Origin: Asterochloris sp. CNOR1
Lineage: Eukaryota; Chlorophyta; Trebouxiophyceae; Trebouxiales; Trebouxiaceae
DNA: 64,000 bases
Assembly (NCBI GenBank): GCA_963969365.1
Contig: OZ017749.1
Coordinates: forward strand, 1,860,001 to 1,924,000
Reading direction: 5' to 3'
The notes beneath the pieces are model-generated. The model saw only the letters and a list, made by a program, of their open reading frames with translations. It ran no database searches and had not been told where the DNA came from. The position numbers and the translations under genes were made by a program. Shown piece after piece: positions 1-64,000 of the stretch. Each line of letters begins with the position of its first letter. Within the stretch, counting starts at the first letter, position 1.

Positions 1-3000
1 TGGCATTGAACATCCTGCTGATGGTCTCTTACCTGGGGCTCAATAGCACCCTCAACCTGATGAACAAGTGAGGCACCTCCTGCCCCTGCCCTGTGAGGCC
101 TGCACGCCACTCAGGCCTCCGATACATCCCCTGCAGGTGGGCTCTGGGCATCTATGGGTTCAGGTTTCCTCTGCTGCTGACCTCATGCCACATGGGGTTT
201 AGCTTCGTGGCCCTGCTGCCCTTCATGCTGCGGGAGCCCTTCCTCAGCAAGCACAAGGACACCCTGTGCAAGCAGTGGAAGGGTCTGGTGGCCATAGGCC
301 TGTACATGGTAGGCCCTGCTTTCAACAGGGGCAACAGTGTGGCCAGGCACTGGCCATGGTAGCTTTTGCCCACACATATCGCTCTCTCTGGCTGTCCAGC
401 CATCCAGCAGCTCATGTGCACATTGCCTGCAGGCCCTCAACATTGCCCTGAACAACCTATCCCTGGTTCTCATCACGCTGTCGCTGAATCAAGTCATCAG
501 GTGCGGGCTGGGGGTCAGGCAGTAGATCAACTTTGCCTGGCTGCCTGAGTGCTAGCCAGCCAGGCTCCACAGAAGCTGCCACGGGCTTGCCAAGGCCCTA
601 GTGTCACCAGCACACAGAGCAGCTGACATCATCCCCCTTTGGCTTTCGTGCAGACCCACCGACAGCCCTGTGTCTCCCACAAACTGCTGATGCTGCAGCC
701 CTTCAATAGGCTGCTGCAGCATGCTGCACTGTGGAAGACCAAGTCCATGCAAGGTGCCGCCCACTGCACCCAGGCTTGCATTGCTGCAGCATGCTGCACT
801 GTACCATGTGCCACTGATCAGAAGCCCAGTGCCAGGCTTGTTTGGCTGCGAGCAATTTTGCCCCAGCAAACTAAGCCATGGCGTGCCAAGGCACAGCACC
901 GGGGAGCTCCCAGCCCCTGCAAGCAGGCTTGCATTGCTTACTGTAGCCCCCTTGCCCAGTCCGCAGATCATATGTTCCTGTGTGCGCGCCATCAGGCCTG
1001 AATGCTGCTCCGCCGCAGCTGCTACACCCTGCCTGCATGGCCAGCAAGCAGGCGCTCAAAAGTCTCTACGACCGGACTCACCTGTGTAAATGGCATGGAG
1101 CATCCACCTGGCCCTTCCTGCAGATCGCCATCCTTGTATGTAAAGCTGACGCCTCTGGCCTGGAGCCCGCACTGAAGCGGAGCTACTGCAGCTTGCACGC
1201 CCTGCCTGCAGGTCTGCCTGCCCCAAATGCTGGTGCATCAGCCTGAAAGACAATCAGGGCAGCCTGCTCAGCCCTGCCTGCAGGTCAGCAATCCCCGTGT
1301 GCACGGCCGTCCTGGCAGTGTTCATTGAGAAGACCACCCCAAGTCAGGAGGAGCTGACAGCCCTCGTTGTGTTGACCCTAGGGGTCATGGTCACGGTGTG
1401 GGAGGGGTCGGCCACTGGCAGCATCACAGGAATCATGCTGGCCATTGGAGCCACCGTTTGCAATGCCGCTATGATGTCCACCTCTGGCAAGGTATGAAGT
1501 GCCGTGATTTTGAGGTGCATGGCAATGCTGTGCATGGCTGCGACACAGCCCTGATATCTGTCCATGGCAAGGTATTGAAGTGCTGTGGTGTATAAACCTT
1601 ATGCATTGCAGTGCGGTGCATGATGCCACCCTTCCGCATGCAGCCATGGTGTTACCTCTGGCAGTGCTGTGGATTTAGGTCTCTGGTCGCACCGCAATGC
1701 TGTGCATGCTGGCCACTTTTCTCCACTGCTGCCATGACTGCCACCTCTGGCACAGGCCCACAAAGGTTGCACTGCCGGGTTTGTAATGGGCAGTGTGCAG
1801 CAGCCCGGCATGGGTCCTGGGCTTAAAACGGATTGCTCTGGTGTGCTTTGCCCTGTATCCCCTCACCCACTTCAGCCACCATGGGCAGGGCGTAGAGTTC
1901 CACTGAGGTGGTGCCATTTGCATCCCTGCAGGACCCGCCCCATGCTCTGTCCGCCTTCGGCAAGGCACTAGCATGCACTGCAGTATCCTGGTCTGCGGCG
2001 TTTCGGGTCCACTCCAGGGTCTGCATGCCAGGCATAAACAACCCCTGCTGTTTGCCTAGCCCAGGTGGGGCTCCCACTAGGGCTCTCGCTAGGACTCAGT
2101 CTTCCACCCAAGGGAGTCCCCAAAGGACAGTCACCTGTGCATGAAGAGTCACCTGTCCATGGTGATGAGCATGGCCAGCCAGTTGGCAGACATACTTGCT
2201 TTGGCACTGCAGGTCTTGTCTGAGAAACTGGACGTGCTGCGTCTGACCTTCTACACTGCGCCCGTTTCTTGCGGTGCGTTACTTCCAGTCTTCTTGCTGC
2301 GCGAGGTGGGTATTTAATTGCCCATGGTGCAGTCTCAGCAAGCAACTCTGCCCCTGCCCTGTTGTCATGGGATAGGCTTGCCCTGCAGCAAGATGCTGCA
2401 CCCCAGCAGTATGGCTACGCCGCTTGGCCCTCTTCCTGCACCTGCATCTCAAGAACGGGTCCAGCCACTGCCAGCAATTCACCTTGCTGAGATTTGGAGC
2501 CATGCTCTTTAGTCTTGAGTAGCTTGCTGAGGGGCCAATGTGCTGGCGCGCACTGTCATCGGCTGCCTGGGCATGCTCAGCAGCCTGCTACGCTTCAGCG
2601 TCATGCATGGCTTTAGCGACACAGCCCGCTGCTTCTGAGCTTTGCCTACCTAAACTTGACAACATGTGGCAAGACTCTGGAGCTGGTGATTGCCCATATA
2701 AGGCACCTGCCTGTGGCTGGCGCCCCAGTACTTGCACTGCTGCATGCTTGCCCATTGCGCCTGCGCTGCAGAGGCAGCAATCTGCCAAGCGCATGGTGGC
2801 TGTCTAGCTGCTGCCTCCAAAAGTGATTCACTTCATGCTCAACATTGCAGCTGCCCTGGGAAAAGGGCAGCATTGCATCAAGTACATGGCTGGCAATGTG
2901 CCCCCCCCCCCCCCCCCCCCCCCAGGTTTGCACCCCTGCATGCTTATGTCCACCCAGCTTCGCTTGTGCATGCCCATATGCTGTGCCTGCCCTGCAGAGG

Positions 3001-3793
3001 CAGCAATTTGAAGAGTACATGGTGGCAAACTCCAACGGCGTGGCTGGCATCCTGTTTGTCAGCAGCAGCGTGGCCTTGGCCTATAATGTGGCGCACTCTC
3101 TAATGATTCAGAAGACCTCAGCTGTCACCACCACCGTCCTTGGTGATTTGGGGCGTGGGGTTTGCCTATCTTGCAACAGGCAAAATCCTGAGTGCCTGAG
3201 ACACTAAACTTGCTGCCAAAGCTGTAGCATGGCTCAGGCGGCAGAGTGCCTCAACACTCACTGAGGCATGCCGTGCATCATTTGTCCACTAAGCATGTTC
3301 ATGAGTCTTTACTCTGCAACACACCTGTCAACCGTTTGCACTGCTGCAGACTGCACACACCCGGCCTTATGCTGAGTACCTTGCCAGCTTGGGCTCACTC
3401 AGGCTATTGCTGCAGGCGAAGTCAAAGTTGTCGGCCTCCTCATCATGTCAGCCCTTTTGTTTGGTGAGCCGCCCTTGCATGCGCTCCTCTGCTGCCTGAG
3501 CTTGAAGTCGCCACGTGCTGGTATGCTGTGTACGTACTGCTTCTGACCCCTATGCAGCTTTGGCAACATTTGTTGTCTGCTGCATACCCTGCTTGGTCAA
3601 AGGCCTCTGCCCTGCTGCAGCCAAGCTTGGCTCAGGCAACTTGTTGTGTGCAGATGAGAAGCGCACTTTCACATTGAAGATGACTGTTGGGATCACCATG
3701 GCCCTCATAGGATGCTGCATGTACTCACACACCAAGATCAGGCAGCCATCAACTGGGCTGCCAGTAAAAGCCCCTGCAGATCCCAATGCATGA
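1..3793 (+). CDS. Drug/metabolite-transporter family protein (sugar-phosphate/nucleotide-sugar translocator type), 5' partial
   Basis: The gene enters from the left edge, so its start is not in the window. Exons I can join in frame: 1-67, 137-308, 433-500, 1284-1491, 2213-2305, 2998-3142, 3416-3463 and 3654-3793 (stop TGA). The product is a chain of hydrophobic helices with the TPT/EamA pattern: an NKWALG-type motif after the first helix, a central helix with IEKTTPSQEE, and a last third with the TSAVTTTVLGEVK motif before the final two helices. That last motif is typical of plant and algal sugar-phosphate or nucleotide-sugar antiporters of the Golgi, ER or plastid. Substrate and compartment cannot be read from the sequence, and the missing N-terminus would decide plastid targeting. 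The C-terminal tail is short and polar, ending in PADPNA. Several introns contain decayed copies of neighbouring exon edges. The family call is secure; the transported molecule is unknown. Confidence 0.85.
1471..1760 (+). repeat. Decayed tandem copies of an exon 3' edge inside the transporter intron
   Basis: The exon edge ending in CTCTGGCAAGGTATG (to about 1495) recurs as TCCATGGCAAGGTATTG near 1561, as TTACCTCTGGCAG near 1652 and as ATGACTGCCACCTCTGGCA near 1737-1755. All lie within one intron, and the last copy also preserves the exon sequence upstream of the junction. Confidence 0.6.
2758..3030 (+). repeat. Acceptor-side exon copy upstream of a transporter exon
   Basis: The real exon starts after GCCCTGCAG at 2998 with AGGCAGCAATTTGAAGAG. 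A copy at about 2760-2806 has the same CTGCAGAGGCAGCAAT start and the later CATGGTGGC segment, but then runs into an in-frame TAG. It looks like a duplicated, decayed exon start that retains a usable acceptor. Confidence 0.7.
2901..2923 (+). repeat. Poly-C tract (C23) in an intron
   Basis: Twenty-three consecutive C on the sense strand of an intron, followed directly by AGG, so it also resembles a very strong polypyrimidine-AG acceptor. Two similar tracts occur in dynein introns. Run length may be unreliable in the assembly. Confidence 0.9.
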
Positions 3794-5737: not shown

Positions 5738-16245
<10,508 letters not shown>

Positions 16246-16761
16246 TCTGCTGATCAGGACTGCTGCAAATTTTCAACAAGGCTCAGACTGAAGCTCAATC
16301 TGCCAGTGACAAGATCAGCATGACTGTCTGAATACTCCTCTACTGACCTAGAAACATCAACAGTTGCATGCAATGTCAAAGTGAGACATGGGTATCTGTG
16401 GGAAGCAGAACCCTGTGTATTCGGAGCGTTCTTGCTGCTGCTTCCGTGCTGTGACCAGAGCTGCAAAAAGCCGCTGCAAGCTCTCCCTGTTCAGGGAGTA
16501 AGCATAGCATCTCAGGTGGGCCAGTGTCTGCAACCTGCAAAGGCAATGCTTGCACGTCTGGACAGCCTAATAATCTCCAGTGTACAGGATTGGAAGCTGG
16601 AATCGTCTGGCACTGGCTCAGCACTGCATATTGCTCAGCAGTGGCTTGAGGCCCTCTGCTTCTGCTTGAAATGCACCCTTATATACAGCAGACAGTGTGC
16701 AGGCTGGCGATTGTATAGTACCCCAATCTACTACTCACGCATGCTGGTCATGATCTTACAG
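16246..16761. other. Intergenic region between the GT2-GH9 and BTB genes
   Basis: No coding exon is recognised here. It must hold the 3' UTR of the fusion gene and the promoter and possibly a non-recognised first exon of the BTB gene. Longer open frames here do not match the frame of the exon that follows. Confidence 0.5.
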
Positions 16762-19700
16762 AGCTTTCGCTGCTGCAGTCGTCTGCGGCCGGCTCGCCGC
16801 CCAGGGCTCTGTCGCCATTGGTGGCAGGCACCAAGCGGCGGCGCCTGCTGGCGGACATGGGGGACGAACTGGAGACTGCACACAGCATGCTGGACCCCGC
16901 CGATGTGGCCAGCTTCCCTGTGGGCCCGTCAGGTGCGGTGGAGGAGGGCCTGTGTTGGCCACTGTGACTGCCAGCAAGCTATCTGGAGGAACAACCCATA
17001 TGGTGCTGCAAATGGCTTGCCTGCCTATGCCAAATGCATCAGTTTCCTGCCTTACAGCATGCCGGGCTGTATGGCTGTGGGTGGCTGCCCTGTTCGCCCC
17101 TGTTCGCCCCTCAGATGGGTGAAGAGGGGCCCTGGGCTGGCCAGGGTGTCATCCGCCAGCTTGCTGTTTCGTAGCAGGCTGCGAGATGACTTGGCTGATG
17201 GCAATACAGCGGGAGCAGGCGGGCCCATCCTTTTGCGGCCACTCCTCCCTGTGGCTAGCCGGGCTCTGCTGATGTGCGCTGCTTCCCTGTGTGCACGCCA
17301 GGCGCCTGCAAGCAGCCCACTGGGCTGTCAGCAGCCTGCAGCCATGCAGACACTGTGTGCTCCAGGCCAAGAGATGCTTACAATTCCCCTCATCAGTCCC
17401 TCAAGACTGCAGCAAGTTTGGCAGGCACCTCTCTATTCCCCGCAGCATGGTCATGCACAGTGCTTGTGAGTGCAGGCCCCACAGAGGTGTCCCGCAAGAA
17501 ATTTGAGCTGTGGAATACGAGTGGGGAGAATCGGCTGCTCTGGGACATCACCTTGGTGTCCTCAGACGGGCGACGTTTCCATGCCAACCGATTGGAGCTA
17601 GCCAGCTGGTCCGAGTACTTTTGCAGGATCTTTTGTGGTGGGTGACTGGCTGACATGTGGCTTGTGCAGCAAGTAGAGCTCTGCAAGATCTGCATGGTAC
17701 TGGGGCTGCTTATGCTGTTTGGATGCCTTTGGCTGGGCTTTGCAGGATCTTCTGTGATGGCCAGATGGCTCCAATGCGTCACTGGGGTTGCCTGGGTCAC
17801 AGTGCGGGCCAATATGCCTCGAAGGTGTGCCAACCTGGCGTGAATTTGGGTGTGTTCTAGTGGGCTCTGACAAGTTAGGGTTGCCTGGGCACTCAAGTAT
17901 CAAGTGTGAGTATATGGCCTTTGATCTGCAACTGAGCAGCGCTTCAGCATGACAGACGTGCTCGGAGCCAGCAGGGTGATGCTGCCGCGCACAAGCCCAG
18001 CATCTGGCCTGCAGCTGAGTGGCAGCCTAGGCCATGCAGGCTTGGCTTTCCCTGCAGGTGACTATACAGAGACCAAGCAGAAGACGCTTAAGCTGCCAGA
18101 GGATGTCAGCGCAGATGCCCTGGAGCTGCTCCTGCATGGCATCTATGCTCAGGAGGTGGGCAGCAGCTGCTTGGAAGGCATACACCCATGATGCAGCCAA
18201 GCCCTCTGTATCGCTGGAGCCCTGCACAGCCCACCAGGTTGTGCTGGATGGCACCCTTCATGCTGGGCAGCCTCAGGCCAAAGACGCCTGACCTGGCTGC
18301 ATGATCAGCATGCTCCATATGATCAGCATGCTCTCACCGCACAAAGAGGCCCTGACCACACCAGCAGCACATCAAGCCGCATGGCCGCGCAGTGCTGTCT
18401 TGTTCACCCTGCCCTGCCCTTGCACAGGCGGTCTTGCTGCACGGGGTCTAGGCTGAGCCTGCCTCGCCTGGCCTCCTTGATGGTGGCTGCCCTGCCATGT
18501 CCTGCATCTGTGCGAGCTGCTTGGCTGCATTGCTTGCTTGAGCCTGCCTTTGCCCTCCCCCCCCACCAAGACTGCCCTGCAACATGCTCACCCTGGGGAT
18601 AAGTGATCATGCTCTGCTCAGTGACGTGTTGCACGCAGGCTGTGCAGCAAACACTGGGCTGCACTGTCTTGCATCTCCTCACTTTCCCATTGGCCGCATC
18701 AATACCTGACTTCGTCCTAACCCTGGCCCGCACACATGCTTCCTGGGCTAGTACTGCCCTGCCTGCAAAGCCATTCCACCGATTTGTGTAGACAGTGGCA
18801 GGCCCTGCAGATCCCTCCACGCAGAGCTGCCCTTCTTGACTATCTTCACTGCTCCTGTGGTGGGGCCAACCTGCTGACTATGTGCTGCGTGGCACCTCAG
18901 ATTCCCTTTACGCGGTACAACATTGAGGACATGCTCCGCGTGAGTGACCGCCTGCGGGTGGAGCTGGTCAAGGAGGCCTGCACAGCCTACTTGGAGAGGG
19001 AGATGACCTCATACAATGTCCTTGAAACCCTGTTGCTGTGAGTCACATGCTTGCAGCAGTGAGCCATCTGAACTTGCAGCAGCTGCCTGCTGCAGTGGGC
19101 CCCCAGACTTTGCCCTGTGTGGTGCTGTTATGTGCACTTGGCATTCAGGCGAGCCCTGCACTGCCTATGCAGATGACCTTATTCACTTCTTCGAGACGCT
19201 GCTGCCCTTGGGACTGCCCTGTTTGGCCCTGTGTGTTAGAAGAGATGTGCAAGCTGGAGGATGTAGGCAGCCACTCAGCTCCCGGTGCTATGGCAGGGAG
19301 TTGACTTCAAGCATTGTCTTCAAGATCCTGCTGATGTGAGCTGGGCCCAGAATTACATGCTGCCTCCGTGTCAGTGGTCACTGCAGCTGTGGCCAGGCAG
19401 CAGCCTGCAGGCCTTGGGCAATGTTTCACCTCTTCTGACCATGCAGCTGCCATCCCAATCCAATGCACTGATGCAGGGACGGCACCTGCTGGGTGCCAGA
19501 CACCCATGGCCAACCACGCAGTGCAAAGTAATGCGCCTAAGCCCTTCGTAAGTGAAACCTGCAGGGCAGATAAGTATGCCTGCAAGCACCTCGAGGAGTC
19601 AGCTCGCAGCTACGTCCGCGAGAATTTCGAGAGCGTTGTGCTCTGGGACAATGAGCAGCCCGAGCACGCCGGCATCTGCAGCCTGAGTCAGACCTCGCTG

Positions 19701-22619: not shown

Positions 22620-22846
22620 AGTGTTCAGATTACCCAAAGCCCTTAGAGTCCTTGCTGCGTGGCACCTTGGACTTCTTCCGTCGCTTTGCAGCTGTGGGGT
22701 CAGGCACCACAAAGCTGTAGAGCAGGACATACTGTTGTCAGCCCTCATGCAACTGTCAGGGCAGCTGAGCATGCTGAGCATCGCACCTGGCCTGCCTCTG
22801 CAGCGGGTTCCGGGATGTGGGGCGGGCCTTCTTCTCCTGTTCACTA

Positions 22847-25046: not shown

Positions 25047-25160
25047 CGTACATGGCGCTGCTGCTGATGCCTTCTGGTGCACTGAACCAGCACTTGACTG
25101 AATGCATGCAGGCAATTGATCGAAATGAATTTTTGCTGGCTTGTCTCACAGACAAGGGCC

Positions 25161-28945: not shown

Positions 28946-29145
28946 NNNNNNNNNNNNNNNNNNNNNNNNNNNNNNNNNNNNNNNNNNNNNNNNNNNNNNN
29001 NNNNNNNNNNNNNNNNNNNNNNNNNNNNNNNNNNNNNNNNNNNNNNNNNNNNNNNNNNNNNNNNNNNNNNNNNNNNNNNNNNNNNNNNNNNNNNNNNNNN
29101 NNNNNNNNNNNNNNNNNNNNNNNNNNNNNNNNNNNNNNNNNNNNN
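28946..29145. other. Assembly gap (200 N)
   Basis: Exactly 200 undetermined bases, probably a placeholder of unknown true length. It sits between the 5' end of eIF2B-beta (minus) and the first visible dynein exon (plus), and the tail-coding exons of the dynein should lie here. Confidence 0.99.
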
Positions 29146-46600: not shown

Positions 46601-49600
46601 CAAGAAATGGATCAAGAATATGGAGCGCCACTCCCAGTTGGAGGTGCTCAAGCTCAGCGACGGGGACTACGTGCGCAAGCTGGAAAATTGCATCCAGTTT
46701 GGGTACCCTGTCCTGCTGGAAAATGTGGGAGAAGAGCTGGATGCCACGCTGGAGCCTTTGCTGCTCAAATCCACCTTCAAGCAGGTGCGCTCGCCTGTGC
46801 TGGGCACATCTGAGGTATTGTCTTGGCTGAGTGGCACCCGAGAGGGCTTGCCCTCAGAAGTCAAGCCCTGGGGTGTGAGTATGGAGCCCCTGCTGCTCAG
46901 TCTACCTCAAGCAGGCAAACCACAATCTCTAATGCTAATTGGGACTTTGAGGACAGAGAGAGGCTTCTGCCAATTGCGCCCACCTTCAGGCAGGCAGGCA
47001 GGCACCATCTTCATGCTGTCGCTTAGGCCAAAGGCATTGCAAACGAAAAAAGGGGATGTACTACCAGCATGGCCAGTCCTGGGAATACAGGGCTGTGATG
47101 TGAGGTTAGAGTTTCTGCTTTTTTGATCTGCCTATCCCCCCCCCCCCCCCCCCCCCCCCACTACTGCCTATGTTGGCATGGCTGCCTTGGACCAGACAGC
47201 GCCTCACTAAGCTGTCCAGACATGCTGAGGCTTGAGTAAAGTAGGCAGTGCTGCATTGGTTGGCGGCAGGCTGACTGCCTCTGGGACCTGGTTGCCTCAA
47301 AGCTTCATGGGGAATGGACGCTACATTACGTGAATGCGCTGACTGTGCTTGTGCAGGGAGGCTCCCTGTGCATCCGTCTGGGGGACAGTACTGTGGAGTA
47401 CAGCGACAACTTCCGCTTCTACATCACCACTGCCCTGCGAAACCCCCACTACCTGCCAGAGGTTGCTGTGAAGGTGGGTGGATGCGTGAGGAAGATGGTG
47501 ACCATTGTTCAGATTGCAGGTTGTGTTCTGGGCACATGCAATTATCTGGCAATGGCGTGCATCTGTTGGTGGCATCAGCAGCGTGGCACCCATGCCAAAG
47601 CAGGAAATTGCTGCACACAGAGGCAGAGAGGCACACTACAAAGTGTTGAAGGCTTACAGCAAGCAGCACAGCAGCAGCTTTACAGACACAGCCAGACCTG
47701 CTTTCTGACCAGCTGGCTTGGCTGCGAGGCAGAAGACTCTGTCAAGCTTATACGTCTCCCTGATCAGCACCTGGGCAATGCAAAGTGCTGAGCGACTGCT
47801 GCACATGGCGTGCAGGTCACCCTGCTGAACTGTATGATCACCCCTGAGGGCCTGGAGGACCAGCTGCTGGGCATTGTGGTGCAGCGGGAGCGCCCTGAGT
47901 TGGAGGAGGAGAAAACAAAGCTGGTGCTTCAGGTGGGGCTGTTGGGGGTCCTGTCGCTGTGACAAGACTGGACTGTGGGGTCCTGCCACTGGCCTGGCAG
48001 GGGTGTTTCTGTCCAGGGCAATGTTGACTGTTTGCAGATTTGTGTGCAGACGGCATACGCTCATGGCAGCAGCTCAGAGCTTTGAATTCTATCTGTAACC
48101 ACTGCTTGCGGAAGTTAGCAAAGACACCTTTTGCAGCAGCCTCTGTGCCTGCTTCTTTCAGGGTCTTTATCCCATGCAGTGCTGCACACACCAGTGCCAC
48201 TTGGCAGTTCCATGTCATGCCAGTGCTGCAGGGCGCTGAGAATGCCAGGCAGCTGGCAGAGGTGGAAGACAAGATCATTGAGGTGCTCTCAGGGGCAGAG
48301 GGCAACATCCTAGAGAATGAGACAGCCATCACAGTCATCACAGCCTCCAAGACGCTGTCCAATGAGATCAACCAGAAGCAGGCCATTGCGCAGCGCACAG
48401 AGAAGAAGGTGCCGCGCTCATCATAAGTGCTTGCGCTCAAGGATGCCACTTGTATGCATGTGCAAAGGCATTGAGGGCCTTGTATGGAGGCCTCTGTGAT
48501 ACGCAGCAGGAGTCTTGTATGCAGTTGCGGCAGGTCTCAGTGCTGCAATTCAACGCCTGCCCGCCATCCTTGTGTCACAACCGGCCTCTGAGACTCAGCT
48601 TTCTGGGGCCACCCTGCAGATTCAACTGATGAACATGCCTGACCTGTCAATTGCCCTGCAGTGCCATAATCAAGGACCTTTCAGATACTATGATGCTGCT
48701 GCCTGAGTCGATGTGACGTTGCATGTTAGTAAGGCCAGCAAGGGCTGCAGGCAGCTTTGCAGTGCTCATTGCCCTGCACCCATATGCAGTGCCTTGACAG
48801 CGAGCCTGTGTTGCACTGCAGATTGATGAGGCCCGTCTCGGCTACAAGGATGTGGCACGCCATGTCTCGGTGCTCTTCTTTGCCATCAGTGGACTGGCCA
48901 ATGTGGAGCCCATGTACCAGTACTCCCTTGCCTGGTTTGTCAATCTCTTTGAGGACGCCATCAAAATGGTGCGGGGCACTGCCAGCTGCCTGCTTGCTGC
49001 TGTACTGCAGCGGGCAGGCGCCTGTGTGCCAATACTATTTCACCACCGGTCTGACCCTGGTGCTGCAGGGTGTGGGCTGCATTTTGGTAACACTCTTGCC
49101 CACAGCAGTCTGTGCCTGGCTGCCAACCATTGCTGTGTATATGGAGAAGGACAGAGCATCCATTTTTGTATGATGCTACACAGTGCTGGTATCCTTGGCT
49201 GGGTTAGGGACAGATCCAGGGTCTGTGTGCATTACGGCAGCTGTGAGCGTCTGTGCCCTTGGGCTGTTCATATTGGCTGCAGCCCATCTGACCGTATCTC
49301 ATGGTGCTGTCCCTGTGCCTTTGCTGCCCAACAATGCTGGCGGAAGGTCTTACTTGGACGGTGCGCTGCTTGGGCTGCTGCTGCATGAGGCTTTGGCGGC
49401 CTGCATGCCTGTCCTGCTGTTGCACGACATTGCCCAGGGCTGCACTGGGACACTGGATTGCGTCAGCTACTGCAGGCACCTCAAGGAGAGAATCTGGAGG
49501 CTCGTATTCAGGCCCTGACCTCCCACTTCACCTATTCCCTGTACTGCAACGTGTGCCGCAGCCTCTTTGAGAAGGACAAGCTCCTCTTCAGCTTCACGCT

Positions 49601-52600
49601 GTGCACGGCTTTGAAGGTGGGCTGCCTTCAGCTTCTGTCAGCCTTAGCTGATGATGCAGCTGCTGACTTGCACACGCTCTTTCCTGCTGCTATCTGTATC
49701 TGCATGGTTGCTGCAGGCTGGCTTTGCTGTTCTGGTGGACTATCCCCTTCAACATGACAATGCATCAAGAATGGAACTGGTTATGTGTGCAGGAGCACAT
49801 CACTAAGTCCTTGGAGATGCCTGAGCTGCGTTTCCTTCTAACTGGCGGCATCGGCGCTGGTGAGGTGCCCCCCAATCCCTCCAAGTGGCTTGCAGACAGG
49901 CTGTGGACCGAGATGCACCGCCTGTCCGGCAGCTTCCCAGCATTTGAGGGTTTCTCAGAGGCCTTCAGGAGGGAAGAGGTGGGCAGGCTGTTTGACAGCC
50001 AGACATGCATATTGCTGGCTCAGGAAGCCCAGGCCGCTTATCTTGCTCTCAACGGTGTGCATGTGTGATCTCCATTCTTGGCAGTGTCGTCTGTGAATGT
50101 GGTGCATCAATGGCACAGCTGCCACTCTGCAGCAGGCAGGTAGCATGTGCGCTCCCCAGCTTTGTGTGCCTGTAGACAGGCTCCGTGACAACACAGGGCC
50201 GGCCCTGGTCCACGCTGTGGACTACCCAGCTGACCTCTAGGACTGCCTGCTCGTTATGAACACTATGGTCCGCCGTCCTCGCAAACATGGTTGTGTGTCG
50301 TCATGGTTGACGTTGCTGGCAGCTGCTGCGCTGCAGGCCCCACATCACAGAATTTGACAATGCAGGCTGGCCCTTCTCCTGCCCTGGGCTGTCAAGCTGA
50401 CCTCTGTGACTGCCTGCTCCGCAGGGATCACACTGCTGCACTGCGCTCTGCAGGTCAGGTGTGTAGCGGTCAGCCAGCAGCTGCTGCTCTGCAGGCTCCC
50501 TGGAAGGTGATCTCTGACAGTGCTGACCCAGCCAGCATGGCCCTCCCGCAGCCCTGGGCCGACAAGCTGACGTCCTTCCAGAAGCTGCTGGTCCTGCGGG
50601 TGCTGCGCCCTGACAAGATGGTGGTGGCCCTGCGCCACTTTGTGCGCTCCGAGATGGGCACAGAATATGTGGAGCCGCCGCCGTTTGACCTGAACAGGTC
50701 TGCCCTGCCTATATGGCTGGGCATCAGCTCAGCACCCTGCATGCTCTGGCCTGCCTGCTTACACTCGACTGCCTGCATGTTGGTGGCCCTGCGTCACTCT
50801 GCATGTGCTGAGGCAGGGGCAGAGCAGCAATGGCCGCCAGCCTGTGACCAGAGTAGGTATGACCTGCCTGCTGGAAGTGGCAGCTGCTCGTCTTCCCAAA
50901 TTTGGACTGGAGGCGCTCACCTGCAGCTTCCATCGCCCTCACCAGAAACCTGGTTTGCGGTCTAGACAGGCTGTGCGCAGTTTGCTTGCAGGCATGCAGC
51001 TCACTTGACGCCACAGCATGCTCTCCTGCAGGTGCTACCAGGACAGCACCTGTTTGACGCCCCTCATTTTCGTGCTGTCCCCAGGGTCAGACCCCATGGC
51101 GGGGCTGCTGAAGTATGCGGAGTCACTGAGGGCACAGGTTGACTCCATCTCCCTTGGGCAGGGCCAGGGCCCAAAGGTAGGCACTTCTGGCAGGTCATCA
51201 GCTGCTTGCACAATATCGACTGTCTTTGAGCTGACTTGCGGCACACACAGAGGTTGGCCAGCAGCCTAACTGCACTGCGCCCAACAAGTGCCTGGCTGCC
51301 ATCTGCCACTGGTGGACAATGGCCCCTTTCCTGCCTGGTCCAGCCGCTGCGCTGCCTTGGTGTCTCAGAGGCTGCTTCTCTAGGCATGGCTGTGCCTGCC
51401 ACGGCTTCAAGGCCCGCTCAGCTGTGTCTGCTGGTCTAGTCATCTCAGAGCTGCGCCTGCAAGTGTGGCTGTGCCTGCTGGCCTGCAGGCCGAGAAGCTC
51501 ATCCAGTCCGCAGCGGCCCAGGGCGGCTGGGTGGTCCTGCAGAACTGCCACCTGGCAGTCAGCTGGATGCCCTCCCTGGAGCGACTGTGCGAGGGGCTGC
51601 TGGCAGAGAGCACCCACCCTAGCTTCCGCCTGTGGCTGACCTCCTACCCCTCACCCCACTTCCCGGTGCCAGTGCTGCAGAATGGCATCAAGATGACCAA
51701 CGAGCCCCCAGCAGTAAGTCTGGTAGCTAGAGTGCTGAAGGGCATGTGAATTGCAAGCATGCCCGCTTGATTGCCAACATGCCCATTGCGATGTGCAGCA
51801 GGAGCGTCGACGTCTGCACAACATTTAAGCCTCAGCTTGCCTCAGATCCATGTCCAGCAAAGTTCCAGCAGCTCTTTCCAGCTCCGCATTGGCTCAATTT
51901 CACCTCCTGCTTGAAAGGCTGCCTTATTGCATGCCAATCAGCCCAAGACATGGGTGCTTTGTGTGCTGCAGGGCCTGAAGGCTAATCTGATGCAGAGCTA
52001 CCTGAATGATCCTGTCAGGGACCCTCACTTCTTTGATGGGTCCCAGAAGCCCTTCCAGTTCAGGAAGCTGCTTTTTGGCCTGTGCTTCTTCCACGCTTTT
52101 GTTCAGGTCTGCACAAGTCAAGCTCTGCCTGCTGTCTCAAGCCGATCCATGAAGGCCACATCTGCACTCCACGCCTAAAGCTGCTCTCAGTGGCTGTCCA
52201 GCTCCGCGTGACTGATGCTCTGTAAAGTACCCTTGCACAACACTATCTGATGACTTTCAGTCCTGCTATCACACATGCCCAGCGCTGTGCTGGTGCAGCT
52301 CTTTGATCTTCAAGCCCCTGTCCTGCAGGAGCGCCTCAAGTTTGGACCTCTGGGTTGGAACGTCCCCTACCAGTTCAGCCTGCCCGATTTTGTGATCAGC
52401 GTGCGCCAGCTGCAGATGTTCCTCAATGAGTTTGAGGACACCCCCCTCACTGTAAGCAGCAGCACAAGCCCATCATGCTGTGCTCAGCCTGCTCAGCTTG
52501 CGCCCACTTGCACCTGGCATCTCAACAAATACTGCTTGACAACTGGTGCCTACACTGTCCTGACAGGCTTGGTCTTGCACAGCAGGTATTCTGTGTGCTG

Positions 52601-55600
52601 CGATTGCTGCATGGCTTGCTGCTTGCGGCGGGTTCCATGGCTTGCATGCCACTGTGTAGAGCCAGACTGTGACCATCCATGCGGCAAGGGCTTTTGCATT
52701 GGCCTGGCTTGCCCATCAGCTGAGTCTGCTCTACACAGCAGTGGTGCGTACATGTGAAAGGAGGCCAGCAGGCCTTGTCCTGTTTGACATGGAAGCATCC
52801 ACTGCCTGTAGTGTGCCATTCTCCTTGGCCAAAGTCAGGCCCTATACAACCGGCAGTGCAACTGCGATGTCAAGTTCCCATGCCTGTGACCTGACGGGGA
52901 TCTTTTCAGTGCTGCAGGCCCTGTCCTGCCTGATGCAAGGGTGCAACTGCTGCTGGCACTGCTGTGTCTGCCCATTGCAAGGTCATGGAACCTCTTTCCC
53001 TTGCTGCAGGCCCTGTCCTACCTGACAGGGGAGTGCAACTATGGCGGCCGTGTGACCGACGCCCATGACCGACGCACCCTCTCATCCATCCTCTCCATCT
53101 TCTACACCCCCCAGATCTTTGAGCCCAACTATAGATTCAGCCCCTCAGGGCTATACTGTCCCCCGCCCAACACAGACTACCAGGGCTACTTGGATGCCAT
53201 CAAGCAGCTTCCATCAGCTGCTGAGCCTGAGGTGTTTGGCCTGCACGCAAACGCCGACATCACCAAGGACCAGCAGGAGGCTGATCTCGTGCTCAGCTCG
53301 TGCCTGGCCATGCAAGGTGCGCAGCAGCAGAGGCGACTTTGTTGTGAGGCACGGCTGCATACCCCCTTGCTGGAGACGGTCAGCTAGGCTGGCGGAGTGT
53401 CTTGAGACACCTGCGTGGACCGTGTGCTGAAGTGCCTGACTATGCAAGGTGGGTCGGGCTGAGGTGCAGCCTGGCAGAGCTTGGGCATGGCACAGGCCCT
53501 GCAGTCAGCTTGCGCCTGTTGAGCATGAGCTGCTGGGCGGTGATGGCTGGGGCGCCCCAGAGACACCCCTGTGGCTGGCTGTAGCCTCTGCTGCAGGGGC
53601 TGCATTAGGGTCCTCAGGGTAGTGCTGCAACCGTGTGGTCAGCTCCAGCATTGGCCCTGCATGGCCAGCGGGGTACTCTATCGCTGCATTTTAGGTGCTT
53701 GGCCCACAGGCTCTCACCCAACAGCGAGAGCAACAGCATCTCATGTGCCTGGGTTCTGCCTGCAGGCAGTGCTACTGCAGCAGGTGGCAAGAGTCGGGAC
53801 GCAGTGCTGTCTGAGCTGGCAGCTGATGTCGATGAGCGCCTGACAGGCGTGTTTGACATTGAGGCTGTGCGGTACAAGTACCCTGTGGACTACAATGAGA
53901 GCATGAACACTGGTGAGCAGGGGTGGTGCCTGCTGGGGCAATCTGACCTTGAGGGTGTACAGTCAGCATTACATGGTGGCTTGCATTGAGAGCAGAGCAG
54001 TGGTGTGAGGAGTGGTGGTGCAGGAGCAGCTTGGTAGCACTAGGCAATGATGGGCCAGTCAGCCTCCTTCCGGAGTCCACTTCCCACAAACAATCAGCAT
54101 TGATGCCACCAGATGTGCTAGCTGTGCAACGATCCAGTGCCAATGAGTCCTGCAGCCATACAAAGGCACATGGGCTATCAGTCATAGCCAGGCAGCAGGC
54201 GTCAGGTGCAGACTTCTGACACAAGCACTCGTTTCATGAAGCATGGGGCCACCAACGCATGTGCCTGCCATGTTTGGCCTGCCTGCACAGCCAGGGACGT
54301 TCTCTTCCCAGCCTTTTGCCCCACACCAAAGCTGCCTGGCTGCTGCCTGACAGCTTTTGACCAGCGTCTGCAGCCAGCAAAGGCCTGCGTCCATTCTCCA
54401 CCCCCACGCTGAGGTTGCTTGCCACCTGCAGTGCTCTGTCAGGAGCTGGTGCGCTTCAACAGGCTGGTGCAGGTCATCCACTCCAGCTTGAAGAGCCTCC
54501 AGAAGGCACTCAAGGGAGAGGTGAGTCAATGTACCTTACTGAGCTAGCAGCCTACCAGAAGGGCCCCTGATGCCCTGGGCCGTCAGCAAGCGTCTAGGCA
54601 ACTCATGCTGGTAGTGCACATGGGAGCTACACAGCCGCCTCATCTTCAGAGATTGGCCCAGCAGAGTCCACTTCATCCATTGTGCTGCGCAATTGCGCTC
54701 CCAGCAGTCTGAGCCACCACAATACAAGTGGTGTCCCTTGCCTTGCCCTGCTGCAGGTAGTCATGTTGCAAAAGTTGGTGCTTATGTCGGCGTTGCCTCA
54801 CTGAAACTGGCATGCACCTTGGCTAATCTGGGGCTCTTGCACAGCCTCTCATGTGCCCCGCCCTGCCGCAGGTGGTCATGTCGGGCGACCTGGAGCAGGT
54901 TGGCAATGCCATGTACGATGGACGTGTGCCTGCCCTGTGGAAGGCACAGTCCTATCCCAGCATGAAGCCCCTGGGCAGCTACGTGAACGACCTCATTGAG
55001 CGCCTCAACATGCTGTCCCGCTGGATTGAACATGGCCCGCCACCTGTCTTCTGGATCAGTGGCTTCTACTTCACCCACGCCTTCCTCACAGGTGCGCAAG
55101 CAGGATCATAAATGCATCAGGACTGTGGCCATTGCCAGAGGGCATCCTTTGTCAACCAATGCGTTGTGCCAGAGGCACCCGTCTCTGGAGGACCTGTGAC
55201 TGTTACCTGAGACTTCTCGAACATCTGGATGTGCTGCCTGGCTGCAGGGGTGAAGCAGAATTTTGCGCGTAAGCACAAGGTCCCCATCGATGCTGTCATT
55301 TTTGACTACGTGTGCTTGCCAGCGGTGAGTGTGTCAGCCTGAAGCTCCGCAAGTTACTGAGGGCGCAGCCTGGCTGCAGTTGAGCAGATAAGCACATTCC
55401 CCCGTCCCAGCAGAACTCAAGATGGCACTTGCACAGCTGCCCCTGCAGCCTGCCGCCATTGAATGATCCGGGCCTCTCTGCGTGGCATTGTGGGATGGCT
55501 GTGACATCGTGCAGTGCCATGGAAGGAGTTGCTGCCTTCTCATGTAGTCCCAGCATATGCAGGGCGAGTATACACTGGCTCCTCCAGATGGCGCCTATGT

Positions 55601-56152
55601 GAATGGCATGTTTGTTGAGGGTGCCAGATGGGACGCAGACGCCATGACCCTGGCAGAGTCGCTGCCAAAGGTGCGCCTGCCTGGCCCCTCAGCGCTGCTC
55701 TCCCTGCATGCTGCACAGAGGCCCTGCACAGGCTGCAGCTCCCAGGTTCTGAGGTAAATGCTGTGGAAGCCAGCGCCTTGCATTGCTGACCAAACCTCAA
55801 CTCACAGGGGTAACAGAGCTGCTTGTGTCTTTAGCCGGCCATGCTGGGATGCTAATGAACAGCAGCAATGCCTGGTTTGTCCTGCAGGATGCGTTGCTGA
55901 ACGGGTTTTGCACTCCTGCAGGTGTTGTACTCGCCTGCCCCAGTCATCCACTTGGTTCCCTGCGAGCAGTCCACGCTGCGCAGCTTCCCCCACTATGAGT
56001 GCCCCCTATACTGCACACCTGAGCGCCGCGGAGTGCTGGCCACCACTGGGCACTCAACCAACTTTGTGATGGACCTCATGATACCCTCAGACCAGCCGCA
56101 GCACCACTGGATCAGACGTGGCGTCGCCTTCCTTCTTGGTCTTGCAGATTAG
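29419..56152 (+). CDS. Axonemal (inner-arm, single-headed type) dynein heavy chain, 5' partial, with one apparent frameshift
   Basis: About 45 exons read as one dynein heavy chain from the linker to the C-terminus, ending at TAG 56150-56152. Landmarks: linker [20 protein letters not shown] (29419); AAA1 Walker [10 protein letters not shown] (about 32526) and Walker B CFDEFNR; AAA2 [12 protein letters not shown]3 [11 protein letters not shown]4 GVGGSGRQS; stalk coiled coils around a microtubule-binding domain; AAA5 with LLIDPQ; AAA6; and a C-terminal domain with [10 protein letters not shown] and TTGHSTNFV. The motif versions match monomeric inner-arm axonemal chains (DNAH1/3/7/12-like), not cytoplasmic dynein or outer-arm chains. 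It hydrolyses ATP to slide axonemal doublets. The N-terminal tail (roughly the first quarter) is absent. A one-base shortfall in a T/C run near 30141-30150 breaks the [15 protein letters not shown] motif. Possible poly(A) signal TGTAA at 56162. Confidence 0.93.
32017..34413 (+). other. Dynein AAA1 (main ATPase site)
   Basis: Exons carry [34 protein letters not shown], Walker [33 protein letters not shown], Walker [17 protein letters not shown], sensor [20 protein letters not shown] and the following helices to [12 protein letters not shown]. All catalytic signatures are intact, so this module should hydrolyse ATP. Confidence 0.92.
32601..32786 (+). repeat. Copy of an AAA1 exon 3' edge inside the next intron
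   Basis: The exon edge CTGCAGTGACGGCCTGGACT (32601) continuing ACCTCGCCATGGTAAGG recurs at 32747 as CTGCAGTAACGGCCTCAACT continuing ACCCTGCCTTGATGAGG. Agreement is about 80 percent over some 35 bases, with the donor-like end lost. Confidence 0.7.
34377..34540 (+). repeat. Copy of an exon 3' edge with donor in a dynein intron
   Basis: CTGTTCGAGGGCATCTTGGC, continuing TGACCTGTTCCCTGGAGTGAGC (34378-34419), recurs at about 34499-34538 as CTGTTGAGGGTGTCCTGGCT, continuing TATCTGTTACCTCAGGTGAGC. The copy has a better donor (CAGGTGAGC) than the annotated one. Confidence 0.7.
34969..36285 (+). other. Dynein AAA2
   Basis: The P-loop reads [12 protein letters not shown], with Ala before the Lys where many chains have Gly. 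The Walker-B-like segment [20 protein letters not shown] and the sensor [16 protein letters not shown] are normal. AAA2 normally binds ATP structurally without hydrolysis. Confidence 0.88.
36514..39451 (+). other. Dynein AAA3
   Basis: Pieces in order: [51 protein letters not shown], Walker [16 protein letters not shown] (37752 onward), [37 protein letters not shown] and [14 protein letters not shown]. Signatures for regulatory nucleotide binding are intact. Confidence 0.9.
37982..38290 (+). repeat. Three-copy minisatellite, period about 116 bp, in an AAA3 intron
   Basis: CTTGTGGCACAAGGGGCAG (37982), CTTGTGGCACACTGGGCAG (38098) and CCCGTGGCGCAGGGGGCAG (38214) mark three successive units. GGCTGGCAGCTTCCTGGGG-like text in unit 1 matches GCTGACAGCTTCCTGAGCTG in unit 2. 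The copies are diverged. Confidence 0.75.
39713..39730 (+). repeat. Poly-C tract (C18) in a dynein intron
   Basis: Eighteen consecutive C on the sense strand, about 160 bp upstream of the acceptor of the exon encoding LWSHEML. It lies just before the first of the duplicated acceptor-side copies listed at 39731-39905. Confidence 0.9.
39731..39905 (+). repeat. Triplicated acceptor-side exon start in a dynein intron
   Basis: The real exon start reads CCTGCAGGCTGTGGTCCCAC (39884 onward). Upstream copies read CCTGCAGGCTGCGGTCCCAC (about 39812) and CCTGCACGCTGCAATCTCAC (about 39736). Each includes the AG and the first 13 exon bases. The nearest copy retains a usable CTGCAG acceptor. Confidence 0.8.
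39888..42209 (+). other. Dynein AAA4
   Basis: Pieces: [32 protein letters not shown]-loop [14 protein letters not shown] (about 40950), [63 protein letters not shown] and [26 protein letters not shown] is the usual AAA4 form in axonemal chains. Confidence 0.9.
40079..40235 (+). repeat. Copy of an exon 3' edge with donor in a dynein intron
   Basis: ATGTACTGCAGCTTCCTCAC, continuing CCAGGTGGGC (40079-40108), recurs near 40197 as CTGTGCACTGCAGTTTCACG, continuing TGTCAGGTGGGTG. Both retain a GTGGG donor. Confidence 0.65.
42954..43050 (+). repeat. Acceptor-side copy of a stalk exon
   Basis: The stalk exon contains GGCCTGCAGAAGCTGCTGGC (about 43017-43036). The identical 20 bases occur at about 42955-42974 in the intron immediately upstream, 62 bp away, followed by TGCTTTGAGG instead of TGCAGAGTCTGAGG. 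Confidence 0.85.
45222..45455 (+). repeat. Exon start present three times before the stalk return-helix exon
   Basis: The exon (from 45401) encodes [17 protein letters not shown] copy at about 45317-45365 would read [14 protein letters not shown] after TTGCAG, and another at about 45223-45277 would read [19 protein letters not shown]. Similarity is visible at both base and residue level, so these are ancient tandem copies of the whole exon start. Confidence 0.75.
46751..47000 (+). repeat. Three copies of an AAA5 exon 3' edge
   Basis: GGAGCCTTTGCTGCTCAAAT, continuing CCACCTTCAAGCAGGTG (46751-46787), recurs near 46883 as GGAGCCCCTGCTGCTCAGTC, continuing TACCTCAAGCAGGCA. A weaker copy near 46961-47000 includes CCACCTTCAGGCAGGCAGG. 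Confidence 0.75.
47136..47159 (+). repeat. Poly-C tract (C24) in a dynein intron
   Basis: Twenty-four consecutive C on the sense strand inside the intron after the LLLKSTFKQ exon. It is the longest of three such tracts, all in introns and all C-rich on the coding strand. Confidence 0.9.
50390..50870 (+). repeat. Copies of both edges of one AAA6 exon in its flanking introns
   Basis: Upstream, GCCCTGGGCTGTCAAGCTGA (about 50380-50399) resembles the exon text GCCCTGGGCCGACAAGCTGA (50551-50570). Downstream, GTTGGTGGCCCTGCGTCACT (about 50779) resembles the exon text GTGGTGGCCCTGCGCCACTT (50621), and the likeness continues to the donor region with CAGAGTAGGTATGACCTGCC against AACAGGTCTGCCCTGCC. Confidence 0.7.
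52916..53045 (+). repeat. Acceptor-side exon copy before the dynein C-terminal domain
   Basis: The exon start GCAGGCCCTGTCCTACCTGA (about 53006) has an upstream copy GCAGGCCCTGTCCTGCCTGA at about 52915. Both continue to GGGGAGTGCAACT or AAGGGTGCAACT. The copy retains CTGCAG as a potential acceptor. Confidence 0.8.
53296..53455 (+). repeat. Donor-side exon copy in a C-terminal-domain intron
   Basis: GTGCCTGGCCATGCAAGGTG (about 53300-53320) recurs as GTGCCTGACTATGCAAGGTG at about 53431-53450, with a usable GTGGGT donor in the copy. Confidence 0.75.
54752..54905 (+). repeat. Acceptor-side exon copy in a C-terminal-domain intron
   Basis: The exon start CCGCAGGTGGTCATGTCGGG (about 54867) is mirrored upstream by CTGCAGGTAGTCATGTTGCA (about 54752). 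Both keep CAG followed by the same GTxGTCATGT sequence. Confidence 0.65.
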
Positions 56153-56941: not shown

Positions 56942-59900
56942 ATGACTCTGTCTGCCATTCTGCTGGCTGCCCTCCTGAGTTCTTGGGCAACCGCACAGAT
57001 CAAGCTGCAGCTGGCGCCTGGAAACAGCTGTCTGGTGAAATCTACTGCCTGCATGGCAGAGCAATTAATGTGTGCTCTGTTTGTGATGTCACGCTCCACC
57101 AAGCTTTCTGCTTGCAGGAGCCCTCACTGGTGAAGGGCTAATTTCACATTGTGATAGCAGGCTACAGATACGACACCTGCTTTGACACCTGGCTGTGGGA
57201 CCTGGGCACCACCAACGCCGATGTGAGTCATGAGATACTGGCCATCGTCACGCTCCAGCCATGCCGGCATCAGGTGCATCAGGCAGTGCTTTGGGCCAGT
57301 GCACAAAGGGTGCGGGCAGGGCTAGAATGCAGCAGCCTATGGATGCCTCGGAGGACTGTGCCCTGGTATGCTCCTGCAGGTCACACTCTATCGCCGAATG
57401 CAGCCTGATCTGCCAGAGAGGAGCTGGGCTGGCCCGTGCGGCATGTCTGTGATGGAGAGGCTGCTTGTCCCCAACCATGGCAAGGACGGGGCAGTTTTCT
57501 ATGTGAGCACCTTGCTACCCCACCAAGTCCAGCAGGCCTGGCAGAGCTGCCCTGCCTCTTGGCGGTTGTGCTGCCTGCTGGAGTAGCAAACATGCCTCTG
57601 ATCAGCCCCTCTCTTTGCCACCTGGCTGCCGGACAGCATCTCATGTAAGTGGACTGCCTCACAGAATGCGGCAGCAAGGCAGATGCGCCCTGCAGCATTG
57701 ATCTGCCTGCGCTTGCTTGTAACAAACCGCCCTGCCTTACGCTGTCTGCTGGGCTGGGCAGGACCCTTCAAGCTCTGCCACAATTGGCAGCCCCTGACCT
57801 TGTGCCATGTGTCTCACCCTGCAGGACTTTATCTTGGAACATTATGATAACATGCCATCGTACATTATGTTTGTGCATGGTGAGCAGCACTCATCCCTGC
57901 CGTGCTGGCTACCCTGCAGTGCTGCACCTGCTGCCCGACTGCCTGTACTCACAGCTTTGGAAGAGGAAGGGCTTTGCCCTGCGTGTCACCCTCCCCAACA
58001 GTGGTCCGTCGCCCCTGCAGGGCTGCACTTGGGGCACATGCTGCCCCACTGCCTGCAGCCTTACGCTTGCACTGGCACCTGCGGCCTGGACTGGCCACTG
58101 CAGCCCACCCCTGCCCTGTCGCAGGTCCTGCAGCCCACTGCCGCCCTGGCAAGCTGCTGGCTCCAGCCTCCCCTTGCAGCCCCACTGGCAGAATGTCCAG
58201 ATCTGCATACCCTCTCCTGCATGATAACCACCGTGCTGCCCCTGCTGCCTGCAGGTCATGGACCTTCTGGGCGTCGTGCCTGGCACACCAGCTGCGAGTC
58301 CACCATCAGTCGCACTCGTCTGTGAGTGCCAGCTCCCATGAGTGCCTGGTGGTCAGCGTGCCATTTTCCAACCAGGGCTCCACTGCAAGCCATGCTGGCG
58401 GCAAAGCACACGACAGCCCTCAGGGGAACTAGGAGCGCCCTCATGCAAGATTTCTGCTGTTTGATTTCTCGTTAAAGTCTGCAGGTACTATAGCCTCCTT
58501 GCCACACCCGTGCTTGGGTTCAAAGATGGAGAAACTGAGCTGGTACATCGTGGCATCACGCTGTCCAGTCAGCGCAATGGGTCAGGTCAGTGCTGAGCAT
58601 TCCCCAGTCTCTGCTGGTGCAGAGCGCTGCTGGCCTGGTAACAAGACCTCATGCTTTCCAGCCAGTGCAACGGGTCTGATCGGTGCGGGGCGAATCACAT
58701 CAGTCCCCGTAGGTGAGTCCTGGGCAGACCACTGCTGGTTGGAGTGGCCTTGCTGGGCAGTCTTCAGCAGTTGCCGCTGAAGAGGTCACAGCCTTTGCTG
58801 CCCCATGTGCTGCAATGTCCCAGTGGTAGGCAGGAAAGCATTGGCTCTGCAGCATGTCTCTGGTCTGCTCACCGACTTCAGATTAGTCGTATCAAGTCGA
58901 CCGTCAAAAGGACACAGAACATGGGGCCTTCAGGCCTGCTGGCTGCATCTGCCTCAAGTGGAGGCAGCACAGGGCAGTGGCGGTGCTTCTCCATGTTCCT
59001 GAAGGGTGGACACCCCCACCGCACTACTTCAGGCTGTTCAACAAGAACCAGCTGCGGGCCTGCAGGCATCAATGAAGAGGGGCAAGACCTGGTGCCTCAC
59101 GTTGTGCACCAGAGGCCCATGCAGACTTCCAGCAGGGAAGCAGGTGCTTTCAGCACCAGGGGCCTCCTTCTGTCAGACATCAGGGACCTGCCAGCAGAGC
59201 ATCAGGTCTCCGCGCAGGAGGAAAACACACGCGCCACCACGCTATGCGATAGCATCTTCTACAAGTGGGTCCCCCACCAGCTTGAAACTGTTTGCAAACT
59301 GGTCCAGTTGGCAGCTGTGGCAGGCCCTGATCGGCTCCTGCGATTGTGCCAGGATCACAGTGCCTGCTGGCAAAACCAATGAGGTCAGGACCACGGTCTC
59401 TGCTGCAGTGTACCAGCCAGATTGCTATCCTCCGAGAACCACGTCGGCTAGGGTTCCAGATGCCAGCCACTGCTTGATGGACCAGACCGGGCCCCTGTAC
59501 CTAGGCAATGCTGGCTTCTGCTGCTGTTCGGTCAAATTGCTGCTGGGTGCTCTGGCAGGCCGGTTTCGCTGCAGGCTGGGAGGCATGCCATAGTGCACAG
59601 CAAAGCTGCACAAGAGTTCGCTGCCATGCTGCCGGTGCTCCAAGCGCATTGTGACGTGGAATCATTGGTCTTCAGGTCCTTACAACTGCCTCCCAACAGC
59701 GTGCTGCAGCCCTGCACAGCTGGGCACCTGACAACGATCTGCTCTGCCGATCCCTTTGCCCCACCAGCCCAACTGCCTGCAGGTACAATGTCATGAGGAT
59801 AACCGTCAACTGGCACAGCGGGTTCCACAGCTGCTGCGCCAGTTTTGTGGCCCCCACTGCCAACCTTCTACGCCTGCCCAAGCTCTTCTTTAAGGATGTA

Positions 59901-63373: not shown

Positions 63374-63526
63374 TGCAAATCCCGTGACATATATATATGT
63401 GCCCTCTTTGTACGCTGCCACACCTTCCTATTTGCTGAGCTGCCACAGCATCTTCCCAAACTGCATGAAGTCTGGCCCAACAATGTTGCAGCTCCCACGA
63501 TTTTTGGAAAAAGTCTGCAAGTCACT

Positions 63527-64000
63527 TCAGAGGTCAGCGCTTCGGTGTGATGCCTTCTGTCCAGCTAGGTCACTATCAGGCTTGGCCTTGCTGGTCCAGA
63601 CTGCTAGCACAGTCATCACTAGCAGATAGAGGATGATCATAGCCAACCACCTGTTGCGTTGCGATAGCTTTAGCCCCTGCACATCAGCAGCAAACTTTGC
63701 GCAGCTGCTCAGGTCTGTAAGGGCCTTGCCTTTTGCAGGGGAATGCTCAATGCCAGAGTAAAGATGCTGCAGGCAGCTGCAGAATCTCTCCTTTGCAAAC
63801 CAGGAAAGATTTCAATTCGATAGCAGAAGCTCTCGATGCCAGAGCGCAGTGGCAGACTACTGCAGGCAGCCAGCTTACTGGGACGTCGATGTCGCATTCA
63901 GCGCTGTTGCCATCATCTTTAGAGGCTGGCTGAGTGCTGTCCTCAACTTCAGATGGTGCCTTTGGCTGACTTGTGGCAACTGGTCCCTTATCCTTATTTT
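63527..64000 (-). CDS. C-terminal part of a membrane-anchored protein (5' beyond the window)
   Basis: The terminal exon runs from 63714 (after a CTTACAG acceptor) to TGA at 63529-63527 and encodes DLSSCAKFAADVQGLKLSQ, then a single membrane helix WLAMIILYLLVMTVLAVW flanked by Arg/Asn before and Lys after, then a short tail ending HRSADL. An upstream exon at about 63891-64000 encodes an acidic stretch (DGNSAECDIDVP) with donor GTAAGC, and at least one exon between them is unresolved because phases do not match directly. The layout suggests a tail-anchored or single-pass protein. Family unknown. Its stop is 153 bp from the stop of the convergent 61066 gene. Confidence 0.5.

Follow-up and report, generated by a model that had tools for sequence, protein, structure and literature searches.

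A stretch of 64,000 nucleotides from the green alga Asterochloris sp. CNOR1 (hereafter the window; G000:C4:1860001-1924000, from a genome of 56.4 Mb in 21 contigs) raises the question of whether introns hold degenerate copies of the neighbouring exon edge, splice site included, and of how such copies would have arisen. The original prediction, made from the sequence of the window, had named fifteen examples and read them as recurrent short tandem duplications across exon-intron junctions. We followed it up in 304 kb of the 56 Mb, consisting of the window, 200 kb of contig C1 and 40 kb of contig C10. In the stretches examined, about one intron in eight carries a worn copy of its own neighbouring exon edge, and these copies are probably the remains of recurrent short tandem duplications across exon-intron junctions.

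Exon edges match their own adjoining introns

Introns were taken from the models of our own two-strand hidden Markov gene finder, which was built without RNA evidence, seeded with peptides of the open reading frame list (11 of 12 match the window, 744 residues) and trained on the window and the 200 kb of contig C1. Its starting matrices held a loose donor consensus and YAG/G-like acceptor preferences (the slash marks the junction) and nothing more. It converged on CAG/GTG donors and CTGCAG/G acceptors; the learned acceptor consensus, close to YTGCAG/G with G at -4 in 93%, looks unusually strict. The models comprise 637 introns, of which 587 (60-700 bp, no N) were tested and 50 excluded. Rows with low dinucleotide entropy were removed before counting. 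Counts of extents and of independent duplicates also exclude lags <60 or >260 and scores <62, and the strong-case set described below excludes echoes with a lag <45.

In the own-edge test, the exonic 40-mer at an exon edge was scored against its own adjoining intron. The controls were edges >3 kb away or on another contig (distant), neighbours within the gene model of the edge itself, and reverse-complemented edges. A score of at least 80 was reached by 25/441 upstream exon edges (5.7%), compared with 0.26% for distant edges, 0.33% for same-gene neighbours and 0.2% for reverse complements. For downstream edges the corresponding values were 17/435 (3.9%) versus 0.29%, 0.43% and 0.2%. The axonemal dynein heavy chain gene of the window by itself gave 6/55 upstream and 5/53 downstream. 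With a looser earlier gene model (270 + 886 introns, many tiny exons), upstream edges reached at least 80 in 19/502 cases versus 0.16%. The own-intron signal faded inward, to 7/335 and 4/326 at 41-80 nt from the edge and to 2/237 and 0/228 at 81-120 nt. Own edges exceed the controls and matches become rarer away from the junction; CTGCAG-rich composition is therefore not the cause of the signal. This comparison of own-exon with unrelated-exon matches is the test that had been named at the outset, run here on a sample, and it places own edges far above the controls. In the fresh 40 kb of contig C10, the same thresholds yielded 5/47 donors and 1/48 acceptors: the donor-side signal is replicated, and the acceptor side taken alone adds little.

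Among the 333 introns with both edges of at least 40 nt, 53 reached a score of 70 on either edge (controls 4.0%) and 33 reached 80 (controls 0.4%). The excess over controls amounts to 9.5-13.1% of these introns at thresholds of 80 to 60, and 13 of them carried at least two copies (matched control 0). The introns had been described as filled with decayed copies; the excess of copies is real, but it concerns only about 10-13% of introns, so that 'filled' is too strong a word.

Copies are direct and local

Ungapped direct matches (score at least 60) were far more frequent at lags of 15-300 than at lags of 2015-2300, with 44 versus 3 in the window, 149 versus 3 in the 200 kb of C1 and 57 versus 0 in the 40 kb of C10, or 250 local versus 6 distant over the three samples. 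A slightly different count of inverted matches at up to 300 bp gave 1, 19 and 1, respectively. An inverted-repeat origin was rejected, reverse-complement copies being at background. A dispersed-element origin was rejected as well: introner-like recurrence of exon edges in introns of other genes, >3 kb away, was found in only 0.26-0.29% of sampled edge-intron pairs.

A strong-case set of 46 copies, 26 donor-side and 20 acceptor-side, showed median identities of 0.74 and 0.78, respectively, and a median lag of 127.5. Copies were direct and 42 of the 46 lay at 60-250 bp, as the original prediction had it for both distance and orientation. In the best-preserved pairs homology approximately fills the lag (C1 68395, 69/77 at lag 71; C1 37493, 15958 and 154337; window 58585); many other copies have a visible homology of 25-60 nt only, and among donor-side cases the median visible share of the lag was 0.47. 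Junction-spanning duplication copies also occur on C1 and, for donors, on C10.

Copies at individual junctions of the window

In a test using the exon part only, the donors at 1491, 32632, 34413, 46785 and 58585 gave 0/464 each and the donor at 19029, with its exon end modelled at 19037, gave 1/464, while the acceptors at 2998, 43008, 45401 and 53010 gave 0/469 each. The remaining five coordinates were then given a junction-spanning test, in which 39888 and 54871 gave 0/383 and 53316 gave 1/383; in the exon-only test 53316 had given 5/464, for another copy at 53624-53663. The donor at 40102 was weak (120/464 exon-only, 23/383 junction-spanning), and individual weak cases such as this one may be chance matches. 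The site at 8456 was unsupported as a donor-side copy (41/464 exon-only, 317/383 junction-spanning). Thirteen of the fifteen examples therefore pass one of the two tests, with 40102 weak and 8456 failing. The acceptor at 9004 gave 14/384 in the junction test, the modelled exon start being 9018. For 2998 and 19029 the intron was taken across predicted micro-exons judged to be copies, and for 8456 it was extended over two predicted exons as far as 9003, before the exon start that the model places at 9018.

Additional copies, absent from the fifteen, were found at 29652, 30821, 32469, 45587, 46038 and 8770-8822, the last of these, on the acceptor side, in the intron tested for 8456; a genome search with window positions 9000-12300 reported no further copy. 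The copies outside the first gene are listed here, with those that had not been predicted marked as new.

8770..8822, + strand: acceptor-side copy of 9011-9063 (53 nt, 83% identity, lag 241; new)
19169..19205, + strand: donor-side copy of exon end 19037 (1/464)
29720..29781 (derived from source + lag), + strand: donor-side copy of exon end 29652 (lag 128, 49/66; new)
30902..30987 (derived likewise), + strand: donor-side copy across junction 30821 (source -37..+49, lag 117; new)
32361..32393 (derived likewise), + strand: acceptor-side copy of exon 32469 (lag 111; new)
32743..32777, + strand: donor-side copy of exon end 32631 (0/464)
34497..34530, + strand: donor-side copy of exon end 34413, GT kept (0/464)
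39797..39835, + strand: acceptor-side copy across junction 39889 (junction 0/383; exon-only 31/469)
42955..42977, + strand: acceptor-side copy of exon 43007 (23/23; 0/469)
45233..45270, + strand: acceptor-side copy of exon 45401 (0/469)
45588..46037, + strand: intron with two copies, donor-side (lag 113) and acceptor-side (lag 93); both new
46882..46914, + strand: donor-side copy of exon end 46784, GT lost (0/464)
52918..52957, + strand: acceptor-side copy of exon 53010 (0/469)
53432..53466, + strand: donor-side copy across junction 53316 (junction 1/383)
54739..54768, + strand: acceptor-side copy across junction 54872 (junction 0/383; exon-only 28/469)
58645..58678, + strand: donor-side copy of exon end 58585 (homology -51..+48 approximately fills the 93 bp lag; 0/464)

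Decayed exon edges may be mistaken for additional exons by gene finders, as happened with ours for three copies (2772-2795, 8777-8833 and 19297-19335), and the automated annotation of this genome may contain false micro-exons of this origin.

Repeated units in a pair of paralogous genes

A transporter gene at window positions 1-3700 has a segmental paralogue at G000:C3:3456864-3460273. Three features of the window copy are relevant here.

1284..1491, + strand: source exon; a unit of ~87-98 bp, made up of its last ~42 nt and the first ~45 nt of the intron, is repeated in the intron
1538..1752, + strand: degenerate donor-side array, with copies at ~1538-1571, 1625-1663 and 1712-1752
2686..2981, + strand: extra DNA relative to the C3 paralogue, with acceptor-side copies of exon 2998 at 2772-2800 (within 2756-2800) and 2866-2896

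In intron 1492-2212 the exon end and intron start recur with a step of 87-98 bp, and no reverse-complement matches were found. The C3 paralogue carries the same array in a better-preserved state, its first copy agreeing with its exon at 37/42 positions; of the three copies in the window, that at ~1538-1571 was detected only with the paralogue's exon as query. Since the array is common to both paralogues, it probably predates their split.

Between aligned flanks at exon 2998, 296 bp of the window correspond to 16 bp in the paralogue. The difference of 280 bp contains two acceptor-side units (one locus). It amounts to the gain or loss of whole junction-spanning units, tentatively read as a gain. 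A run of ~22-23 C at about 2901-2923 lies within this extra DNA; nothing in the paralogue's 16 bp corresponds to it. The paralogous introns had diverged by 24.2%, with 0.13 indels per substitution, and the exons by 11.5% without gaps; the introns, still alignable at ~76% identity, might serve as an internal clock. Genome searches with window positions 4900-7400, 9000-12300 and 13000-16300 returned no paralogue, and the paralogue evidence comes from one gene pair.

Short tandem duplication as the probable source of the copies

Of the explanations considered, the tandem-duplication reading of the original prediction is the best supported, by the direct orientation, the local lags, the 87-98 bp array, the best-preserved pairs, in which homology approximately fills the lag, and the paralogue without the two units. 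The likeliest account is that introns lengthen by tolerated duplication, the copy being left to decay. A short tandem duplication (lags mostly 60-250 bp, median ~128) would happen to span an exon-intron junction. With a unit across the donor, the upstream original donor would stay in use and the second exon end with its GT would fall inside a longer intron; with a unit across the acceptor, the last acceptor would be used and the earlier AG, together with its copy of the exon start, would fall inside the intron. The protein would be unchanged, and the copy in the intron would decay by neutral substitutions and indels. Because purifying selection holds the real exon fixed, the exon half of the copy would remain recognisable for longer than an ordinary intronic duplicate. 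Some units would amplify into arrays, and most copied splice sites would merely decay. The original outer splice sites are presumably those that are spliced, and replication slippage or unequal exchange may be the molecular cause.

The 88 independent local duplicates (lag 60-260) comprised 60 exon-touching, 25 intron-intron, 2 intergenic and 1 exon-exon case, giving an exon-touching to intronic ratio of 60:25, or 2.4. In simulations, random units overlapping introns were duplicated and exons mutated at 0.3 of the intron rate. The simulated ratio was 1.5 with all ages included and rose to 1.8, 2.3 and 3.3 for events of t≥0.10, ≥0.15 and ≥0.20, respectively; a second run (indel 0.12, t 0.1-0.7) gave 2.4; the observed ratio had a one-sided p of 0.15 against 1.83 and of 0.46 against 2.27. 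The median age at detection in the untargeted simulation was 0.146 versus 0.108. With young events as scarce as they are here, the conservation of exons can by itself account for the visibility of exon-touching copies. Exon edges do not seem to be specially targeted, and a modest bias towards them is conceivable. Young full-length local duplicates were few relative to old ones in the window and C1, in introns and at exon edges alike; either the duplication rate may have fallen, or near-identical tandem copies may be lost before they diverge.

Several observations weigh against tandem duplication as simulated or as a general reading. The ratio of 60:25 exceeds the all-ages value of 1.5 (one-sided p 0.028) and fits only without young events. 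Loci scoring at least 140 made up 5% of the 60 exon-touching and 8% of the 25 intronic cases, compared with 52-53% under constant-rate duplication. An exon part beyond 60 nt was present in 8/46 copies versus 31-44% in the donor-side simulation (Kolmogorov-Smirnov p 0.009-0.034); a testable possibility is that a long exon part makes a unit too strong a competitor in splicing, so that it is purged. Exon-touching matches had a median length of 36.5 nt and an identity of 0.83, versus 51 nt and 0.81 in the simulation with 0.12 indels per substitution; the simulated lengths fit only at 0.3, whereas the paralogue alignment measures 0.13. Homology flanking the 40-nt exon edge at the same lag was weak on average. 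In the paralogue itself, aligning the preceding intron to the acceptor region produced two long matches of low identity (84/144 and 122/222), which were taken as background without a control. Finally, the acceptor result from C10 (1/48) contributes little.

Some of these points would suit a spaced, non-tandem origin, in which templated repair or a template switch during replication, for example, would copy ~35-50 nt of exon edge into the intron and the lag would not be the unit length: visible copies are mostly 30-80 nt long at a median lag of ~128, homology drops beyond the exonic 40 nt, and exon extents are shorter than in the tandem simulation. We consider this rather unlikely, as template switching would be expected to produce reverse-complement copies, which are at background, and as several well-preserved pairs nearly fill the lag, in line with the array and the whole-unit difference between the paralogues. 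A higher indel rate would also shorten ungapped matches to the observed length, although the measured rate is lower. A process linked to the splice junction that preferentially copies ~35-50 nt exon edges into the adjoining intron, for instance through repair on a template of nascent unspliced RNA or through transcription stalled at that junction, with the spaced copies then seeding arrays, is improbable.

Copied splice sites decay with the rest of the copy

The original prediction had suggested that the duplications supply spare splice sites. Of the 46 strong copies, 27 extend to the splice dinucleotide (18 donor, 9 acceptor). GT was intact in 9/18 and AG in 6/9, where 9.9 and 5.5 were expected from exonic identity. 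Copied splice sites decay as fast as the remainder of the copy, and since their retention matches this expectation there is no sign of their upkeep as spare sites. It is accordingly very unlikely that the copies are functional duplicate exon ends, serving as alternative exons or regulated alternative splice sites: three of them are exon-like enough to be called by the gene finder, but many carry indels, and in the dynein alignment, as far as about residue 945, conserved protein results from joining the outer sites.

Chance matches produced by a CTGCAG-rich splice consensus and low-complexity words are scarcely credible as a general explanation. CTGCAG is the commonest hexamer of the window (258 copies) and forms part of the learned acceptor consensus, and scores of at least 60 occur in ~10% of unrelated pairs; at scores of at least 80, however, control edges and reverse complements lie roughly 9-25 fold below own edges, which refutes this reading for the strong matches, and the preponderance of local over distant-lag matches in all three samples argues in the same direction. 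Hardly to be entertained at all is the Rogers model, by which the introns themselves would be duplicates of an exon segment with AGGT in it: local direct duplications do belong to this mutational class, and a passage of PMC3443670 calls the model shown in vivo, but lags are usually far below intron length and, at scores of at least 60, the intron 3' end matched the upstream exon end in 0/333 introns (control 0.36%) and the intron 5' end matched the downstream exon start in 2/333 (control 0.63%), none of the 333 having both AGGT-type matches at 55 or more. Being no higher than the controls, these counts do not bear out the suggestion that the same process creates introns.

Relation to known systems

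Tandem duplication overlapping exon and intron is a known route to new introns, according to passages of PMC4974935, PMC3443670 and PMC2891723. The cases described there as intron sources (Rogers 1989 and Hellsten 2011, cited in PMC4974935; potato RdRp) are likewise local, direct and overlap exon and intron; unlike in those cases, as the passages present them, no intron is gained here, the copy sitting inside an existing intron and decaying. For Drosophila, a part of PMC2891723 attributes novel intron positions to intron sliding or tandem duplication, likewise with exon sequence duplicated around splice sites, and mentions many small duplications with some exonic sequence; that part deals with moved or new intron positions, unlike the decayed copies within introns described here. 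Introners, as outlined in an excerpt of PMC9860276, are also a genome-wide source of repeated intron sequence, but they copy themselves into many genes, whereas each copy here matches its own adjoining exon. Alternative exons that stem from tandem exon duplication likewise involve a local duplication of exon sequence; here an exon edge is copied, and no intact second exon is evident.

The mechanism is of a known kind. Searches of an open-licence literature library turned up papers on intron gain and exon duplication and, among the entries listed, none that describes exon-edge copies in introns on a genome-wide scale or decayed copies of this sort as common content of existing introns. If general, junction-spanning duplications would constitute a fossil record, with the conserved exon as a ruler for the age and rate of small duplications from one genome, and would explain part of intron lengthening.

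Genes and composition of the window

Most examples from the dynein region lie in a single gene.

29419..56117, + strand: axonemal dynein heavy chain gene

The 1754-aa part of its product that was searched matches Chlamydomonas 8glv_JG along its whole length. Other genes of the window encode triose-phosphate-transporter-type, glycosyl hydrolase family 9, BTB, IF-2B family and DUF3431 proteins according to Pfam, in which a sixth window protein query had no match. A run of 200 N at 28946-29145, shortly 5' of the dynein gene, marks a scaffold join. The G+C content ranges from 54 to 60% across the window (4-kb steps) and is 58.0% in the C1 sample.

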